Below, in pieces: positions 22,189-32,918 of a stretch of 64,000 bases of DNA. Position numbers and translations under genes: made by a program. The stretch comes from Ovis canadensis (Eukaryota; Chordata; Mammalia; Artiodactyla; Bovidae), in assembly GCF_042477335.2 (NCBI RefSeq), contig NC_091248.1, positions 120,736,501 through 120,800,500 of the forward strand. Direction: 5' to 3'. The stretch's first letter is position 1. Each line of letters begins with the position of its first letter. The notes under the pieces are model-generated. The model had not been told where the DNA came from, did no database searches, and worked only from the letters and a program-made list of their open reading frames with translations.

Positions 22189-22386
22189 AAGTGAAGTCAC
22201 TTAGTCGTGTGTGACTATTTGTGACCCCATGGACTGTAGCCCACCAGGCTCCTCCATCCATGGAATTTTCTAGGCAAGAGTACTGGAGTGGGTTGCCATT
22301 TCCTTTTCCAGGGGATCTTTCTGACCCAGGGATCGAACCCAGGTCTCCTGCATTGCGGGCAGACGCTTTACCATTTGAGCCATACT
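22189..22386 (-). mobile_element. Bov-tA SINE
   Basis: Reverse copy, GGGATCGAACCCAGGTCTCC and GACGCTTTACCATTTGAGCC near its end; followed by a short L1-like AT-rich fragment. Confidence 0.88.
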
Positions 22387-23159
22387 GAGATACAATTGAC
22401 ATAGAATATTGTGTAAGTTCAAGGTATACAAGGTGGAAATTTCCAGATGCTCCTTACTTGTCTCCATACGCCATAAACTGAACTCTTTATTTCTCATATG
22501 GTGTTCTAGAGGCCTGAAAGGTAAATTTTAGTGGCCGCTTGGCAGACTTTCACTCATGTCAGGCCATGCAGATGTACAGATGGTGTCTTTTCATGAAAAT
22601 CACCTGGAGATAACACTGAAGGATTCAGCCTACAGCACATCCAGCATTAACTGAAAAAAGCGAGACTGGTAGGAATCAAATCATGATTTTCACATTTGTC
22701 AAAGTAGAATGTCGTTTAATAGTCTGGTCTCAGTTTCATTGTGAAATGTGTACTTTTTTTTGGTTCCAACTTCCGATTGGCTTTTATTTTTACCCTCAAT
22801 CTTTGAGTCTTTTGAGCAACGTGCCTCTTGTTTTCTTCTCAAGAGAAATCAATGGCCTCTACTTCTCTTGTCCATGCAACTCTGCAACTCACAGGCTTTT
22901 GAGACTCAGTTGCAAGGAGAGAGAGAGCTCGCCTTAGACCAACAAGCAAAGAAAGGTCTGAGCCCGTTTTCCTTCACCGTGACCCTGGAGGCAGCCACAG
23001 CTCTTGGTCCTGTGTTTGTGAGCTGCAATGTTGTGCTTCTTAAGGCTGGAGAATGTTTTCTATAAAAACATAGCTTATCACATAGTCCTGAGAAACCATT
23101 TTGAGGGCATGAACATTTTGATTCATTTTACTGAATAGTTATTATTTTTAGATAATAAT

Positions 23160-25789: not shown

Positions 25790-25889
25790 ATGGCTGCTGA
25801 GGGGGCTGCCCCGCCAGGGAGCAGAGCGGTGGGCATGGTCAGCAGCCTGTGGGTTCTAGCCCTGGTGTCCTCAGTCCTGGCTCTGGAAG
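25790..25889 (+). CDS. EPHB6: EPHB6 coding exon 1: start and signal peptide
   Basis: Residues 1-34. Met1 at 25790 and Met16 at 25835 are both in frame. The hydrophobic core [15 protein letters not shown] follows Met16. Donor GAAG|GTAAGT. Confidence 0.93.
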
Positions 25890-28800
25890 GTAAGTGGGGA
25901 GGGGAGATGGAGGAAGTCCCACCTGCTCGTAGAGACCCAGCACATGTGGGAAGTGGGAAGGATTCAGAAAAGAGTGAGACATCAAGAGAGGAAAAGGTAT
26001 GGGGAAAGTTTCAGAGAAGGGCTCCCAGGAGACAATCAGGCTCCTGTTGGTCACTTAAATGAATCTGGGAGGAAAATTCTCTTCCCAGTGGGGCTGGGGT
26101 GGGCTTAGCCCTGCAGGCTGAAGACCTGGCCACTGAGTGTCCCTTCTTGTCTCTGGGCAGAGGTGTTGCTGGATACCACTGGAGAGACATCTGAGATTGG
26201 CTGGCTCACCTACCCACCAGGTGGGGTGAGTATTACTCTTGTGTTCTGAGCCCGCTGCCCCTCCCCATGCCCCATTCAGAAGCTCTGTGATTCTGGGGAG
26301 GAAACCCTCAGTGGAGATGGCTGGGCTAAGAGGTCTGCCCTCCAGAGGAATAGGACTTCAGGGGCTTTGCATGTGCTTAATTCTAAGATGGGCTGGAAGG
26401 GATATGCCCCACGTCCCTGCCCCCTATGGACCCAGGAGCCACTAACCATGCCTCTGTGGTTCCTCCCTGCAGTGGGACGAAGTGAGCGTTCTGGACGACC
26501 AGCGACGGCTGACTCGGACCTTTGAGGCATGCCATGTGGCTGGGGCCGCTCCAGGCCCGGGGCAGGACAACTGGCTGCAGACACACTTTGTGGAGCGGCG
26601 AGGGGCCCAGCGGGCACACATCCGACTACACTTCTCAGTGCGGGCCTGCTCCAGCCTGGGCGTGGCGGGGGGCACCTGCCGGGAGACCTTCACGCTTTAC
26701 TACCGCCAGGCCGAGGAGCCGGATGGCCCTGACAGCATCTCCTCCTGGCACCTCAAACGCTGGACCAAGGTGGACACGATTGCGGCGGATGAGAGCTTTC
26801 CTGCCTCCTCCGCCTGGGCAGTGGGCCCCCCGCGGGCCGGGCAGAGGGCAGGGCTGCAGCTGAATGTCAAGGAGCGGAGCTTCGGGCCCTTGACCCAGCG
26901 CGGCTTCTACGTGGCCTTCCAGGACACCGGGGCCTGCCTGGCCCTCGTGGCCGTCAAGCTCTTCTCCTATGCCTGTCCCTCTGTGCTCCGCGCCTTCGCC
27001 TCCTTTCCTGAGACGCAGGCCAGTGGGGCCGGGGGGGCCTCCCTGGTGGCAGCCGTGGGCACCTGTGTGGCACATGCGGAGCCGGAGGAGGATGGAGCAG
27101 GGGGCCAGGCAGCGGGCAGCCCCCCAAGGCTGCACTGCAACGGGGAGGGCAAGTGGATGGTTGCTGTCGGGGGCTGCCGCTGCCAGCCGGGGCACCAGCC
27201 TGCGCGGGGAGACAAGGCCTGCCAAGGTGAGACCTCTGCTCGCTTGCACTTGAGATCGCTCATGAACGGGTCCACACTTCATTTTGTACCCCCTGCCCAA
27301 AGGTCAACAATAAGCTGTTTTAGGAAAGGACCCTTGTTTTCTCCAGATTTATTTCCTAAAGCACCCAGGCTTGCTTTCATCCACTCATCTGAAACTTCTG
27401 GAACTTTCTGGAGAATTCCACAGCACTTGCTGGGGCTCCCAAGGCTACAGGCTTCTGAAGGGATGGCGATGAAGGGCGTTGAACTCCTGGGCTGTTGTGG
27501 GATGGGGCCCTTTGTCTGCGTTTGCTGTCTAGCTAGGGATGGATCATTGTCCCGGGAGGCAATGGGTACAACTGAACAGGGTGATTCTGCTGTGAGTGCA
27601 GGCTGCAGACAGCCTCTGCAGAGGCAGGTTGTGAAGGCAGACCAGGCCCTGCCTCTAGTGCCTGGCCTGCTGCAGCCCCTACCACACAGGACCTTTTCCA
27701 TCAATGGAAATGTAATTCCACCCCCAGCAAAATGGCAGAAGTCGTGTCAGGATCTGCCCGAAGGAGGCGGAGAGGGAGGAGAGGGGTGAGGAGGAGAGGC
27801 AGATCTCGGGAGGAACGGCAGGCCTGGGGGAATGGCAGTGCCAGTGTTGAGGGGGCTCAGGATGGCAGAGTGGACCTGAGGCTGCTCCCTTCTCTGACCC
27901 TTAGCCTGCCCTCGGGGGTCCTACAAAGCCTTGGCTGGGAATGCCCCCTGCTCACCATGCCCTGCCCGCAGCCACGCCCTGGCCCCAGCGGCCCCTGTGT
28001 GCCCCTGCCTGGAGGGCTTCTTCCGGGCCAGTTCAGACCCCCCAGAGGCTCCCTGCACTGGTGAGTCCCCCACCCACCCCAGGGATGGAATTGGGATGCA
28101 ATGGGGCCAGGAGAGGGTGAGCCTGAGGGCACAGGGGTGGCTGGTCGGCATTTGCAGTGACTTTTTCCTCCTCTGTCCTTGCTTTCTTTCCCCACCACCT
28201 TTCCCTGCTGCTCCCCTCCGGCCCACCTGCTCCCTCCCTCCACTGCCTCCTTCCTTCTTCCTTCCCCCATCACCCCCGCCCCGGAACTCCCTACTCCCTG
28301 GTCCTTGTCCGCCTCCCACGCGCGGTCTCCCCAGGCCCCCCGTCAGCCCCCCAGGAGCTGTGGTTCGAGGTGCAGGGCTCTGCCCTCATGCTGCACTGGC
28401 GCCTGCCTCGGGAGCTTGGGGGCCGCGGGGACCTGCTCTTCAACGTGGTGTGCAAGGAGTGCGGAGGGGCCGGGGGCCAGGGCCCTTGTCGCCGCTGTAG
28501 GGACGAGGTGCATTTCGACCCCCGCCAGAGGGGCCTGACTGAGAGCCGCGTGCTCATCGGGGGGCTGCGGCCACACGTACCCTACATCCTGGAGGTGCAG
28601 GCTGTCAACGGGGTGTCGGAGCTCAGCCCCGACCCTCCCCAGGCTGCAGCCATCAATGTAAGCACCAGCCACGCAGGTGAGCCTCAGCTGCCCCTAAGCT
28701 TCCGGTCTCCTCCTTAGAATGCCCCCGTGCCCCACTCCTGCTCTCCAGCCCGTGGAAACCCCACTAATATCACCCCCTCATCAGTTCCCTCCGCAGTCCC

Positions 28801-31800
28801 TGCTGTGCATCAGGTGAGCCGCGCCTCCAACAGCATCACCGTGTCCTGGCCGCAGCCTGACCAGACCAACGGAAACATCCTGGACTATCAGCTCCGCTAC
28901 TATGACCAGGTAGGGAGCAGAGGGCGCCCCTGGCGGGGCTGGTGGGAAGTTCCAGGGGCCCCACAGTGGGGCGAGAGGTGGGGGGACCGGAGGGGTGCCT
29001 CAGGGCCCTGCAGCAGGGGAGTGGGGAATGTGGGAGGCGGGCGGGGGGACCAGGACCCCACGGCCGGCAGGGAGTGAGTGGCTGTCGCCCCCCTCCAGGC
29101 AGAAGATGAATCCCACTCCTTCACCCTGACCAGCGAGACCAACACGGCCACCGTGACGAAGCTGAGCCCCGGCCATATCTACGGCTTCCAGGTGCGGGCG
29201 CGGACAGCCGCGGGCCACGGCCCCTACGGGGGCAAGGTCTACTTCCAGACGCTGCCTCAAGGTGAGGGGAGGCCTGGGTGGGGTGGGGGCAGCCCGAAGG
29301 GATGGTGAAAAGGGCTTGGGGACCATCCAGACCTTGTACCTTCACCCTGACCCTCCAGACCAGGAGAGTGTCTGCTCCTTGATCTTCAGTTCCATGGTGG
29401 GGTGAGGGGTGGTGCAGGTAGGTGGTTGCATGAGGGAAGGATGCTCCGGCATGTGAGATCTTACTCACCTGTGCCCCTGGGCGGCTGGTTCTCCAGGTGA
29501 GCTGTCCGCTCAACTTCCCGAGAGGCTTTCCTTGGTGGTTGGGTCCATCCTGGGGGCGCTGGCCTTCCTTCTGCTGGCGGCCATCACTGTGCTGGCTCTC
29601 GTCTTCCAGAGGTAAGCCCCTCCCCGCCACGGCCGGGTACCACTCCCTCCACATGCCCCCAAGTCCTGACAGCCCCGGAGTTCCCCAGGGAAACCCCCAC
29701 CAGCACCCTCTACCCCCAGCAGCCCTGGCCCCTCGGTCTGGCTGTCTCCCGCCCCAGAACCCTGGCAGGACCTTGGCCTCTGTGGGGTGGACTGGGGAGG
29801 GGACAGGCGGGAGTGTGACTGCAGGACTGTGGTTTTTGTCCCCCAGGAAGCGGCGTGGAACTGGCTACATGGAGCAGCTGCAGCAGTACAGCAGCCCAGG
29901 TGGGGGTGGGGCCGGGAAGTGGGGGTGGGGCCGGGAAGTGGGGGTGGGGCCGGGAAGTGGGGGCGGGGCCGGGAGGTGGGGCGGGGCCGGGAAGTGGGGG
30001 CGGGGCCGGGAAGTGGGGGCGGGGCCGGGAAGTGGGGGCGGGGCCGGGAAGTGGGGGCGGGGCCGGGAAGTGGGGGCGGGGGAGTTGGAATCAGAAGGCC
30101 TGAGAAGGAAGGATGAAAGAAGTGGGGCGCGAGGGGGTGGAGGAATGGGACAGTGAGTCTGGGACAGCTGAGAATGGTCCAGGGGTACCCCCGGGCCTGG
30201 CCCCCCAGGTTGCGGGCAGCTCCTTGGTGCCATCTTTGGAAGTGAGAGAGCAAGCCTGGGGTGTGTGGGGACGTCCCTTCTTCATGGACCACCCCCTACA
30301 CCTGCAGGGCTTGGGGTGAAGTACTACATCGATCCTTCCACCTACGAGGACCCCTGCCAGGCCATCCGAGAATTTGCCCGGGAGGTCGACCCCACGTACA
30401 TCAAGATCGAGGAAGTCATTGGGGCAGGTACCGCATGGGAGCAGAGGAGGGCATGGAAGGGGGTCCCAGGAGGGTCCCTTCTGAACAGGGTAGGACACCT
30501 CGAGTCCTTCCTGGGGAGCCCCCCCAGCCTACACCTGCTCCCCCAGGCTCCTTCGGGGAGGTGCGCCGGGGCCGCCTGCAGCCCCGGGGACGGCGGGAGC
30601 AGTCCGTGGCCATCCAGGCCCTGTGGACCGGAGGCGCCGAGAGTTTGCAGATGGCCTTTCTTGGCCAGGCCGCCATGCTGGGCCAGTTTCAGCACCCCAA
30701 CATCTTGCGGCTAGAAGGCGTGGTTACCAGGAGTCGGCCCTTCATGGTGCTGACGGAACTCATGGAGCTGGGCCCCTTGGACAGCTTCTTGAGGGTCAGT
30801 CAGGCTGGTGGTGAGGCGGTGCTGGCGGCGGGAGGCTTGGGCCGGGAAAGTGGGCAGTTCTTAGCTGTCTGGGACCCATAGCCCCATCCCTCAGGTCCCT
30901 CCTGCCTCTGGGGTCTTCAGCCTTCATTCTCAGGCCATTCTGATTCCAAATGGCCCTTGCCCTGGGGTGCCAGTGTGTCTGTGTGATGTGTCTACGTCCC
31001 CCCCCACCCCCCCCACCCCGCCACTTTTGCTGACCTCTGTTCCCCTCCGACCATCCCCCAGCAGCGGGAGGGCCAGTTCAGCAGCCTGCAGCTGGTGGCC
31101 ATGCAGCGGGGCGTGGCCGCTGCTATGCAGTACCTATCCAGCTTCGCCTTCGTGCACCGCGCACTCTCTGCTCACAGCGTGCTGGTGAACAGCCACCTGG
31201 AGTGCAAAGTGTCTCGTCTGGGCCGCAGTCCTCAGGTGAGAGCATGGCCTCGGGGGCCCGGCCTCTCTCGGGGGTGGGGGTGGGGTTGCCATGCAAAGTG
31301 GCTCCACTCGGCTGGCCGCAGTCCTCAGGTGAGGGCACAGCCTCGGGGGCCGGCTTCTCTCAGGCTGGGGGCGGGGGGGGCGGGGGGGGGCGGGGGGGGC
31401 GGGTTGCCAGAGGACAAGCTGGAACCAAGGGTGGTGGATGCCTCAGGTGGCGAACCTTAGAGTCTGAAGGGGTGGAGCTCACCTGTGTAGTGGAGCAAAC
31501 TGAGGGCGAAGGGGCACAGCAGGACATCAGGAATGGACTAAGGACACTGAGGGAGAGAGGGGAATCCCTAGAACCACCTCCTGCCCTTCCCTAATGCTGA
31601 CCAGTGTCAGAATCCCTGGATACCAGTCCACACACCACCCTCAAGCTCTGTGACTTTGCACAAGTTTGTATTTCTCTACGTCTCAGCCCCTGTACCTGCA
31701 AAAATGGAGACAACGCCATCGGTGATACAGGGTCATCACAGGATTAAACGAGATGCTTGCTGTGAAACCCTTAATGCCCATCTGAGCACGTAGTAGCTGC

Positions 31801-32918
31801 TCTGTAACTAGGACCACGGCTCTGATTATTGCTATTGTTACTTTCAACCTTATCCCGCAGGGCCCAAGTTGTATGCTCCGCTGGGCGGCTCCAGAGGTCA
31901 TCGCACATGGGAAACATACAACATCCAGTGATGTCTGGAGCTTCGGGATAGTGATGTGGGAAGTGATGAGTTATGGAGAGCGGCCCTACTGGGACATGAG
32001 TGACCAGGAGGTGAGCTCATGACCTGGACAGTGATGATTCCCCACCCCTGTCCGTCCAACCCACCAGCCTCACAGACTCAAACATTCTAAGCCCTCCATC
32101 CTGGAATACATTCGCGTTCTAAGACCTCACAGGTCTCACAGCTCCTTTCCAGCCTCATGCTTCCCTAACGACACATTCTTTTCCACTAGCAATAGCCTCT
32201 CAGCACTGTCTTCTTCCTCTAATCCCCAGGTGCTAAATGCAATACAGCAGGAATTCCGGCTGCCCCCGCCTCCAGGCTGTCCGCCTGGACTGCACCTGCT
32301 TATGCTGGACACTTGGCAGAAGGATCGTACCCAGCGACCTCACTTTGACCAGCTGGTGGCCGCATTTGACAAGATGATCCGCAAGCCAGACACTCTGCAG
32401 GCTGGCGGGAGCCCTGGGGACAGGTCTGGAGCTTTGGTGTTAGAGCCCGGGAGAGCCAGGGAGGGTTGGTGCAGACCCACAGAGGAAACTGAGCAGAGGG
32501 GACAAGGATGAAGAGGAGACTGTGACCTGCCTGCCCCTCCCTCCCAGACCTTCCCAGGCCCTGCTGAATCCCGTAGCCCTGGACTTTCCATCTCTGGACT
32601 CCCCTCAGGCCTGGCTGTCGGCCATTGGCCTGGAGTGCTACCGGGACAACTTTTCCCAGTCTGGCCTCTGCACCTTCGGTGATGTGGCTCAGCTCAGCCT
32701 GGAGTAAGCCAGGAGGGTCTGGGAGGGGAGCCTCAGCCCAGGGCCAGGGGTGGGCCCAGGGTCTTGGAGACACGGGCCCCAATTGTTTTTCCCTTCTGTC
32801 CCCCTCTAGAGACCTGCCCGCCCTGGGGGTCACCCTGGCCGGCCACCAGAAGAAGCTGTTACACCACATTCAGCTCCTGCAGCAGCACTTAAGGCCGCCG
32901 GGCCCCGTGGAGGTCTGA
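25790..32918 (+). CDS. EPHB6: EPHB6, Eph receptor B6 (receptor pseudokinase), 16 coding exons
   Basis: Single-pass ephrin-B-binding receptor of the plasma membrane that signals through partner Eph and Src-family kinases because its own kinase domain is inactive. Exons: 25790-25889, 26161-26225, 26473-27226, 27905-28060, 28335-28676, 28785-28909, 29099-29261, 29497-29611, 29847-29899, 30308-30427, 30547-30794, 31062-31235, 31861-32010, 32230-32423, 32548-32703, 32810-32918. They join to 3024 nt (1007 residues; human about 1021), all with GT-AG junctions in frame. Domains: signal peptide (about 16-33), ligand-binding domain (about 34-237), Cys-rich region (about 250-358), FN3 (359-472 and 473-568), membrane span (about 582-604), juxtamembrane tyrosines ([11 protein letters not shown]), pseudokinase (about 656-905), SAM (920-1000) and C-terminal VEV, a PDZ-type end. 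The Gly loop GAGSFGEV is kept. The beta3 Lys is Gln688 (VAIQ), HRD is HRA (Ala781) and DFG is RLG (799-801). EPHB6-like wording throughout excludes EPHA1 or other EPHB genes. Start: Met1 matches the human start; Met16 directly precedes the hydrophobic signal and is an alternative. The human poly-Ser tract in the ligand-binding domain is absent. Confidence 0.97.
26161..26225 (+). CDS. EPHB6: EPHB6 coding exon 2: start of ligand-binding domain
   Basis: Residues 34-55 ([20 protein letters not shown] region), nearly identical to the human protein. Acceptor GGGCAG|AG, donor GGG|GTGAGT. Confidence 0.95.
26473..27226 (+). CDS. EPHB6: EPHB6 coding exon 3: ligand-binding domain, start of Cys-rich region
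   Basis: Residues 56-307. Carries the ephrin-binding jelly roll ([10 protein letters not shown], then [12 protein letters not shown] and [18 protein letters not shown]) and the first Cys-rich segment (CHCNGEGKW-type, [11 protein letters not shown]). The Ser run found in human after ESFP is reduced to PASS. An in-frame continuation into the intron reaches 27789 but is not conserved. Confidence 0.96.
27905..28060 (+). CDS. EPHB6: EPHB6 coding exon 4: Cys-rich (EGF-like) region
   Basis: Residues 307-359, with regularly spaced cysteines ([25 protein letters not shown]). Acceptor CCTTAG|CC, donor CACTG|GTGAGT. Confidence 0.95.
28335..28676 (+). CDS. EPHB6: EPHB6 coding exon 5: fibronectin type III domain 1
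   Basis: Residues 359-473. FN3 start [19 protein letters not shown]; ends at NVSTSHA. The loop after CKEC is shorter than in human. Donor CGCAG|GTGAGC. Confidence 0.95.
28785..28909 (+). CDS. EPHB6: EPHB6 coding exon 6: FN3 domain 2, first half
   Basis: Residues 473-514 ([20 protein letters not shown], ending YYDQ). Acceptor CATCAG|TT was chosen because it keeps the human VPSAV junction; a second AG at 28796 would delete four residues. Confidence 0.93.
29099..29261 (+). CDS. EPHB6: EPHB6 coding exon 7: FN3 domain 2, second half
   Basis: Residues 515-569, [20 protein letters not shown] to YFQTLPQ. Acceptor CTCCAG|GC, donor CAAG|GTGAGG. Confidence 0.95.
29497..29611 (+). CDS. EPHB6: EPHB6 coding exon 8: transmembrane segment
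   Basis: Residues 569-607. The hydrophobic stretch [20 protein letters not shown] is the single membrane span, followed by the basic stop-transfer RKRR that begins at the next junction. Confidence 0.95.
29847..29899 (+). CDS. EPHB6: EPHB6 coding exon 9: juxtamembrane
   Basis: Short 53-nt exon, residues 607-625 ([17 protein letters not shown]). Its donor AGCCCAG|GTGGGG is immediately followed by the GC-rich 19-bp minisatellite. Confidence 0.94.
29901..30082 (+). repeat. EPHB6: 19-bp GC-rich minisatellite in EPHB6 intron 9
   Basis: Nine units of TGGGGGYGGGGCCGGGAAG (one of 18 bp) plus a partial tenth, beginning at the second base of the intron. The first three units have T, later ones C, at the variable position. 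Each unit carries G5 and G4 runs and a GC box. Confidence 0.95.
30308..30427 (+). CDS. EPHB6: EPHB6 coding exon 10: juxtamembrane tyrosines, pseudokinase start
   Basis: Residues 625-665. Contains [11 protein letters not shown], the conserved Eph juxtamembrane phosphotyrosine segment, and [10 protein letters not shown] leading into the glycine loop. Confidence 0.95.
30547..30794 (+). CDS. EPHB6: EPHB6 coding exon 11: pseudokinase N-lobe
   Basis: Residues 665-747. GSFGEV glycine loop intact; VAIQALW shows Gln688 where active kinases have the ATP-positioning Lys. Ends DSFLR at the hinge/C-lobe boundary. Confidence 0.96.
31062..31235 (+). CDS. EPHB6: EPHB6 coding exon 12: degenerate catalytic and DFG motifs
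   Basis: Residues 748-805. [12 protein letters not shown] replaces the HRDLAARNILVN pattern and SRLG replaces the DFG motif. The donor CCTCAG|GTGAGA at 31235/31236 is duplicated 93 nt downstream. Confidence 0.95.
31203..31408 (+). repeat. EPHB6: Tandem duplication across EPHB6 exon-12 donor
   Basis: Copy 1 is 31203-31290 and copy 2 is 31292-31408. Both start TGCAAAGTG, contain CCGCAGTCCTCAGGTGAG, then CCTCGGGGGCC.GGC.TCTCTC, and end GGGTTGCC. Copy 2 is longer because of an expanded G/C tract at 31365-31402. Confidence 0.9.
31612..31850 (+). mobile_element. MIR SINE remnant
   Basis: Ancient MIR pattern: CTGTGACTTTGCACAAGTT, CTGCAAAAATGGAGACAA, ACAGGATTAAACGAGATGC, GTAGTAGCTGCTCTGTAAC. Lies in EPHB6 intron 12, ending 10 bp before exon 13. 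Confidence 0.72.
31861..32010 (+). CDS. EPHB6: EPHB6 coding exon 13: pseudokinase C-lobe
   Basis: Residues 806-855: [20 protein letters not shown] to YWDMSDQE. The APE motif and DVWSFG are kept, so the fold is preserved although catalysis is not. Confidence 0.96.
32230..32423 (+). CDS. EPHB6: EPHB6 coding exon 14: end of pseudokinase
   Basis: Residues 856-920: [37 protein letters not shown], then linker AGGSPGD. Donor GGACAG|GTCTGG. Confidence 0.95.
32548..32703 (+). CDS. EPHB6: EPHB6 coding exon 15: SAM domain, first part
   Basis: Residues 920-972: [18 protein letters not shown] is the SAM helix-1/2 signature. Donor CTGGA|GTAAGC. Confidence 0.95.
32810..32918 (+). CDS. EPHB6: EPHB6 coding exon 16: SAM domain end, stop
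   Basis: Residues 972-1007: [20 protein letters not shown], then [10 protein letters not shown] and TGA at 32916-32918. The C-terminal VEV fits a PDZ-domain ligand. Confidence 0.95.

Follow-up and report, generated by a model that had tools for sequence, protein, structure and literature searches.

Neighbouring donor sites that compete for one acceptor, or that arose by duplication, have been described in several systems, and what is said of them below rests on the available parts of the respective papers. In designed minigene libraries, with donors spaced at 2-77 nt, the upstream site was favoured among equal-strength tandem donors in general, and when both donors were set to consensus, the first one was predominantly used (p = 3.3e-5; PMC6783452). 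In intron 4 of DOK7, donor choice is tuned by strength and by a nearby exonic element; the stronger, intron-proximal donor is preferred there, and the preference against the upstream donor weakened once the two were made equal (PMC5585400). An 8-bp donor duplication in ATP11A led to splicing at the downstream copy (PMC9035003), and in Drosophila, novel intron positions have been traced to regional tandem duplication (PMC2891723).

The EPHB6 gene of Ovis canadensis, located in the window analysed here (the whole stretch of DNA, 64,000 nt), resembles each of these systems in part. Two donors of similar strength precede one acceptor, as in the minigene libraries, some variants of which carry one donor copied onto the other; the libraries, however, were designed, whereas EPHB6 offers a natural, genomic arrangement with diverged copies and 93-nt spacing (PMC6783452). 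As in ATP11A c.3322_3327+2dup, the duplication crosses an exon/intron boundary and copies the donor GT, but the ATP11A change takes in only two intronic bases, shifts the frame and is linked to hearing loss, the use of its downstream copy being a minigene result (PMC9035003). DOK7 likewise has one exon with two competing donors; unlike in EPHB6, the available text does not present its native donors as duplicates, and the intron-proximal site is the preferred one (PMC5585400). Regional tandem duplication yields new splice positions both here and in Drosophila, with the difference that there duplicated coding sequence gave new introns, whereas in EPHB6 an existing boundary was copied and no intron was gained (PMC2891723).

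The EPHB6 gene is intact, with 16 coding exons (25790-32918, plus strand) and a spliced coding sequence of 3024 nt, which encodes 1007 amino acids and contains a single, terminal stop. Its Pfam matches (Ephrin_lbd, Ephrin_CRD, fn3, EphA2_TM, PK_Tyr_Ser-Thr and SAM_2) follow the full Eph domain order of ligand-binding, Cys-rich, FN3, transmembrane, kinase-like and SAM domains, the kinase-domain match covering residues 656-900. With residues 1-359 as query, the solved EphB6 ectodomain (7k7j_A, Ephrin type-B receptor 6) matched at 690.9 bits, far above every other Eph chain listed, the next being EphB2 (285.4 bits). Of the degenerate catalytic motifs tabulated for EphB6 in the available part of PMC13259870 (VAIQ, HRS and RLG), VAIQ and RLG are identical here, RLG occupying the DFG place in exon 12 as given in that paper, while HRS is replaced by HRA, which is as degenerate with respect to HRD as HRS is.

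Several further observations were made on the gene and its surroundings. The exon 12 acceptor (31059-31064) reads CAGCAG, a NAGNAG motif, the second AG of which would give one glutamine fewer. Donor 9 (CAG/GTGGGGGT) is followed directly by a G-rich array (29900-30085) made up of 19-bp units, in which a repeat finder, begun at 30000, returned 30000-30081 with 100% matches. In exon 3, positions 26788-26826 within the ligand-binding domain are a candidate for the polyserine site of the J-K loop, which we take them to be by comparison with human EphB6. If this is the same place, the polyserine run, in EphB6 consisting of 11 inserted serines according to the available text of PMC13259870, is nearly absent in this ruminant EPHB6. 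Twelve probes for interspersed elements revealed pieces of Bov-tA, BovB and cetartiodactyl CHR-2; no match came from those directed at SINEs of primates, rodents, carnivores, pig, horse, rabbit and bats. A lone weak tRNA match (22318-22389, minus strand, 30.7 bits at a gathering score of 29) possibly stems from a tRNA-derived SINE.

At the boundary of exon 12 and intron 12 the sequence is present in two adjacent, head-to-tail copies, both beginning with TGCAAAGTG and ending with GGGTTGCCA, as is characteristic of a local tandem duplication (Table 1).

Table 1. Positions, within the window, of the duplicated boundary of EPHB6 exon 12 and of the associated features
Feature	Position	Strand	Donor score	Remarks
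EPHB6 coding exon 12	31062..31235	+		174 nt, both boundaries in phase 0; canonical end at donor 1 (Gln805); spliced gene model
EPHB6 exon 13	31861..32010	+		acceptor partner for donor 1 or donor 2; gene model
Donor 1, CAG/GTGAGA	31235/31236 (31236..31241)	+	6.89	intron-distal
Donor 2, CAG/GTGAGG	31328/31329 (31329..31334)	+	7.31	intron-proximal
Segment that donor 2 would add	31236..31328	+		93 nt, 31 codons, open in frame
Repeat copy 1	31203..31291	+		89 nt: final 33 nt of exon 12 and initial 56 nt of intron 12
Repeat copy 2	31292..31409	+		118 nt: 37-nt exon-like part, donor 2, expanded G/C tract, GGGTTGCCA end
G-rich tract between the donors	31270..31285	+		GGTGGG twice, GTGGGG twice
Expanded G/C tract after donor 2	31367..31403	+		period 9, 4 copies; length may be assembly-sensitive

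Local alignment of the copies without their G tracts scored 79, compared with a mean of 16.3 and a maximum of 39 among 2000 dinucleotide-shuffled pairs, far beyond chance. The repeat noticed in the sequence-only reading is real; the bounds proposed there (31203-31290 and 31292-31408) are corrected to those in Table 1, while the two donors and their distance of 93 nt had been placed exactly. A DNA search of the whole genome (2.97 Gb) with the unit pair gave three matches, the full-length one being the window itself and the other two covering the G tract alone (query 165-202). The greater length of copy 2 is mostly due to its G/C tract, with a further 4 nt in the exon-like part; because the latter measures 37 nt as compared with 33 nt in the parent, the register of the repeat shifts from 89 nt at the start to 93 nt at the donors, and a 38-nt block of 92% identity has the spacing of 93. 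A gain of these four nucleotides in copy 2 seems likelier than their loss from copy 1, since the loss would shift the canonical frame.

When the copies are aligned ungapped save for this 4-nt step, 7 of the 56 columns are mismatched (K2P 0.137), and the duplication is probably old: its age would be about 57, 31 or 23 My at 1.2, 2.2 or 3e-9 substitutions per site per year, estimates which, with seven changes, carry a wide error. So few changes do not suffice for placing the event relative to the sheep-cattle split. A gapped alignment, with one substitution and six gap columns in the exon-like parts and four substitutions and three gap columns in the intron-like ones, could be read as showing fewer substitutions in the exon-like copy, so that the choice of alignment matters; neither alignment fits an echo of a single read. 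As a separate observation, intron 11 carries a C-rich tract (31002-31017) with 88% complementarity, across 16 nt, to the tract at 31270-31285; if the two paired in the RNA, exon 12 would be looped out.

Both copies retain an intact GT donor before the single acceptor of exon 13, that is, the arrangement of a tandem alternative 5' splice site. Scored with a frequency-based weight matrix, donor 1 exceeds 11 of the 14 other modelled EPHB6 donors, and donor 2 exceeds 14 of all 15, donor 1 included. Among the intronic sites of the gene, a score of at least 6 is reached by just two, namely donor 2 and a site at 29418 (intron 7); the in-frame extension to the latter meets a stop, and of the two only donor 2 extends the exon in an open frame. 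Throughout the window, GT sites scoring as high as donor 2 number 6 of 3160 on the plus strand, including donor 2 itself, and 2 of 3288 on the minus strand. A strong second donor is an unusual feature of EPHB6 intron 12.

Donor 2 is also predicted to be less paired than donor 1 at all three folding-window sizes tried (0.46, 0.41 and 0.44 vs 0.11, 0.18 and 0.33). Intronic G runs are able to enhance an upstream donor, and runs of at least three G within 93 nt downstream number six for donor 2 and four for donor 1. An identical run of 20 nt spans the donor in both copies; with P = 0.29 such identity needs no selection, and by this measure selection on the copied donor was not detected. A search of the sheep's own genome with spliced exons 11-13 gave, from 8 scored candidates, 11 matches, each confined to one exon, three of them in EPHB6 and eight elsewhere; within this limit of 8 candidates, under which a weak copy could escape, no processed EPHB6 copy recording splicing across an exon junction was found.

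The interval between the donors contains no stop in its 31 codons, as had been maintained, and splicing from donor 2 to exon 13 would yield a product of 1038 amino acids that ends only at the terminal stop. The insert is rich in tryptophan and glycine and has no Pfam match at E 0.001. Its openness is matched in 0.87 of 5000 dinucleotide shuffles of the segment, in 680 of 980 93-mers sampled from the plus strand of the window at GC of at least 0.65, and in the first 93 nt, read in frame, of 7 of the 15 EPHB6 introns, intron 12 counted; a spacing divisible by three has a chance of 1 in 3. Both properties lie within chance and carry little information. The sequence-only reading was exact in ending exon 12 at Gln805 in the spliced gene model and right that the insert ends again in GRSPQ, but these five residues are the only in-frame match to the parental peptide, so the segment was not kept throughout as a coding copy. 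In addition, the in-frame spacing looks secondary and would be an accident, since the repeat starts in a register of 89, which is out of frame, and the four extra bases of copy 2 make it 93. Nor does the insert follow immediately upon the degenerate DFG motif, as had been supposed: four residues (RSPQ) separate it from RLG.

EPHB6 exon 12 was matched at 12 places in the genome: EPHB6 itself, ten Eph-like copies, and one locus (L031) in which the sequence is not interrupted by an intron at the site and which is not Eph-like. Patterns for the exon gave 11 matches in viral and 100 in prokaryotic contigs, none of which was confirmed, as expected. One of the Eph-like copies (L027) is partly N and was left out. 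In 8 of the 9 others (L021-L026, L029 and L030) the donor lies 42-54 nt past the glycine codon of the xFG motif, always at a multiple of three, and in the ninth (L028) no donor exceeded the low cut-off of 1; the corresponding distances in EPHB6 are 12 nt for donor 1 and 105 nt for donor 2. The next exon starts with GGKIPIRW in all three paralogues where it was seen (L021, L025 and L026) and with GPSCMLRW in EPHB6. On account of these distances and exon starts, the intron position appears to be common to EPHB6 and its paralogues, EPHB6 appears to have lost most of the loop at the 3' end of the exon, and use of donor 2 would lengthen its loop beyond that of every paralogue compared. In the interval of 150-560 nt from the match start, the nine paralogues together hold one site scoring at least 6 (L030, 500 nt, 6.19), and EPHB6 holds both of its donors. 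One of the copies, L029 (G000:C1:13199442-13199588, minus strand), has HRG and GFG replacing HRD and DFG, the pattern given for EphA10 in the available text of PMC13259870.

As regards the sequence between the donors, the methods list of PMC6783452 includes, by name only in the part available, GGTGGG among silencers for the interval of tandem donors and GTGGGG among general silencers. Both occur twice at 31273-31285, their only places within exon 12 and intron 12, but they are not special to this intron: introns 1, 6, 7, 9 and 15 contain one or both in their initial 93 nt. Among the six listed hexamers looked for in exon 12 and intron 12 (PMC6783452, same part), CACCGC occurs once in the exon (31155) and CGAACC once in the intron (31451), GGGGGG is confined to the tract downstream of donor 2, and TTGTTC is absent.

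Taken together, the locus comprises two diverged copies, two intact donors of similar score and an open in-frame stretch between them. A short tandem duplication over the boundary of exon 12 and intron 12 copied the splice donor. Presumably, the upstream donor still terminates exon 12 in the majority of transcripts, both through being encountered first and through the G-rich, silencer-like interval separating the donors, which would disfavour donor 2. The latter would then be a latent or low-level alternative 5' splice site, rarely used, with the 31-residue insert tolerated as noise rather than kept as a selected module. We consider this reading, with donor 1 dominant and donor 2 latent or minor, the probable one; the first-site rule is thereby extrapolated to 93 nt, outside the 2-77 nt of the library (PMC6783452). 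It is weakened by the higher score of donor 2 (7.31 vs 6.89) and its greater accessibility in predicted folding, as well as by the DOK7 and ATP11A cases, both favouring the downstream site, with the reservation that in ATP11A only two intronic bases were duplicated (PMC5585400; PMC9035003). Of the two outcomes left side by side in the sequence-only reading, an isoform or a silent repeat, the silent repeat is the better supported, since donor 1 is intact and its product is an EphB6-like protein, the library favours the first of equal tandem donors (PMC6783452), and the open frame carries little information; an isoform may exist, but on present evidence a functional one is unlikely.

The same facts leave some room for substantial use of donor 2, in at least 10% of transcripts, giving a 1038-residue EphB6 with a 31-residue activation-loop insert that has no selected function. 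We regard this as rather unlikely: equal donors obey the first-site rule (PMC6783452), and the hexamers between the donors resemble silencers; at the same time, the slightly higher score and the greater predicted accessibility of donor 2, its six downstream G runs as compared with four, the wholly open alternative frame and the downstream-site precedents of DOK7 and ATP11A all speak in its favour. It is distinctly improbable, further, that a duplicated splice boundary gave birth to a ruminant EphB6 isoform in which the four-residue loop from xFG to the intron is re-extended by 31 residues, altering the binding surface for active Eph receptors.

A regulated isoform, lineage-specific and selected for altering the activation-loop surface of the pseudokinase, we judge to be very unlikely. 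The site does lie within the activation loop, the insert would change that loop strongly, the EPHB6 donor being 12 nt past the xFG glycine as opposed to 42-54 nt, and the copied donor has stayed intact though 7 of 56 aligned sites changed; yet frame and openness are expected by chance, the exon-like copy is largely outside the parental frame, the identity at the donor has P = 0.29, and the insert is without a Pfam match. Harder still to accept is a replacement of donor 1 by donor 2, which would make the insert constitutive in this species and which agrees with the at least equal score of donor 2 and with the use of the downstream copy in ATP11A (PMC9035003). Donor 1 is unweakened and yields an EphB6-like protein, and the insert would fall within the Pfam kinase-domain match. 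An assembly artefact, in which one copy of the donor region was doubled, hardly deserves credence: the repeat adjoins a 37-nt G/C tract, and tracts of this kind are hard to read, but the copies differ at 7 of 56 sites and by indels, which an error of read duplication would not yield.

No description of a duplicated EPHB6 donor or of a ruminant EPHB6 loop isoform was found in the open-licence literature searched by titles and abstract beginnings. The isoform passages of PMC13259870 name HER3, EphA10 and PTK7 and no specific EphB6 isoform, the sole 'splice variant' in the available part of PMC6620610 is that of ephrin-A4, in a reference, and the two mentions of EphB6 in the available part of PMC1431701 refer to no variant. 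EPHB6 represents a natural counterpart of the laboratory test: a donor has been duplicated along with the adjoining exonic and intronic sequence, and both copies are available to the same acceptor. As the published systems disagree, in the parts cited, on which copy wins (PMC6783452; PMC5585400; PMC9035003), the gene would offer an in vivo case of donor competition at 93-nt spacing, and if donor 2 is used, the activation loop of this pseudokinase would gain 31 residues.
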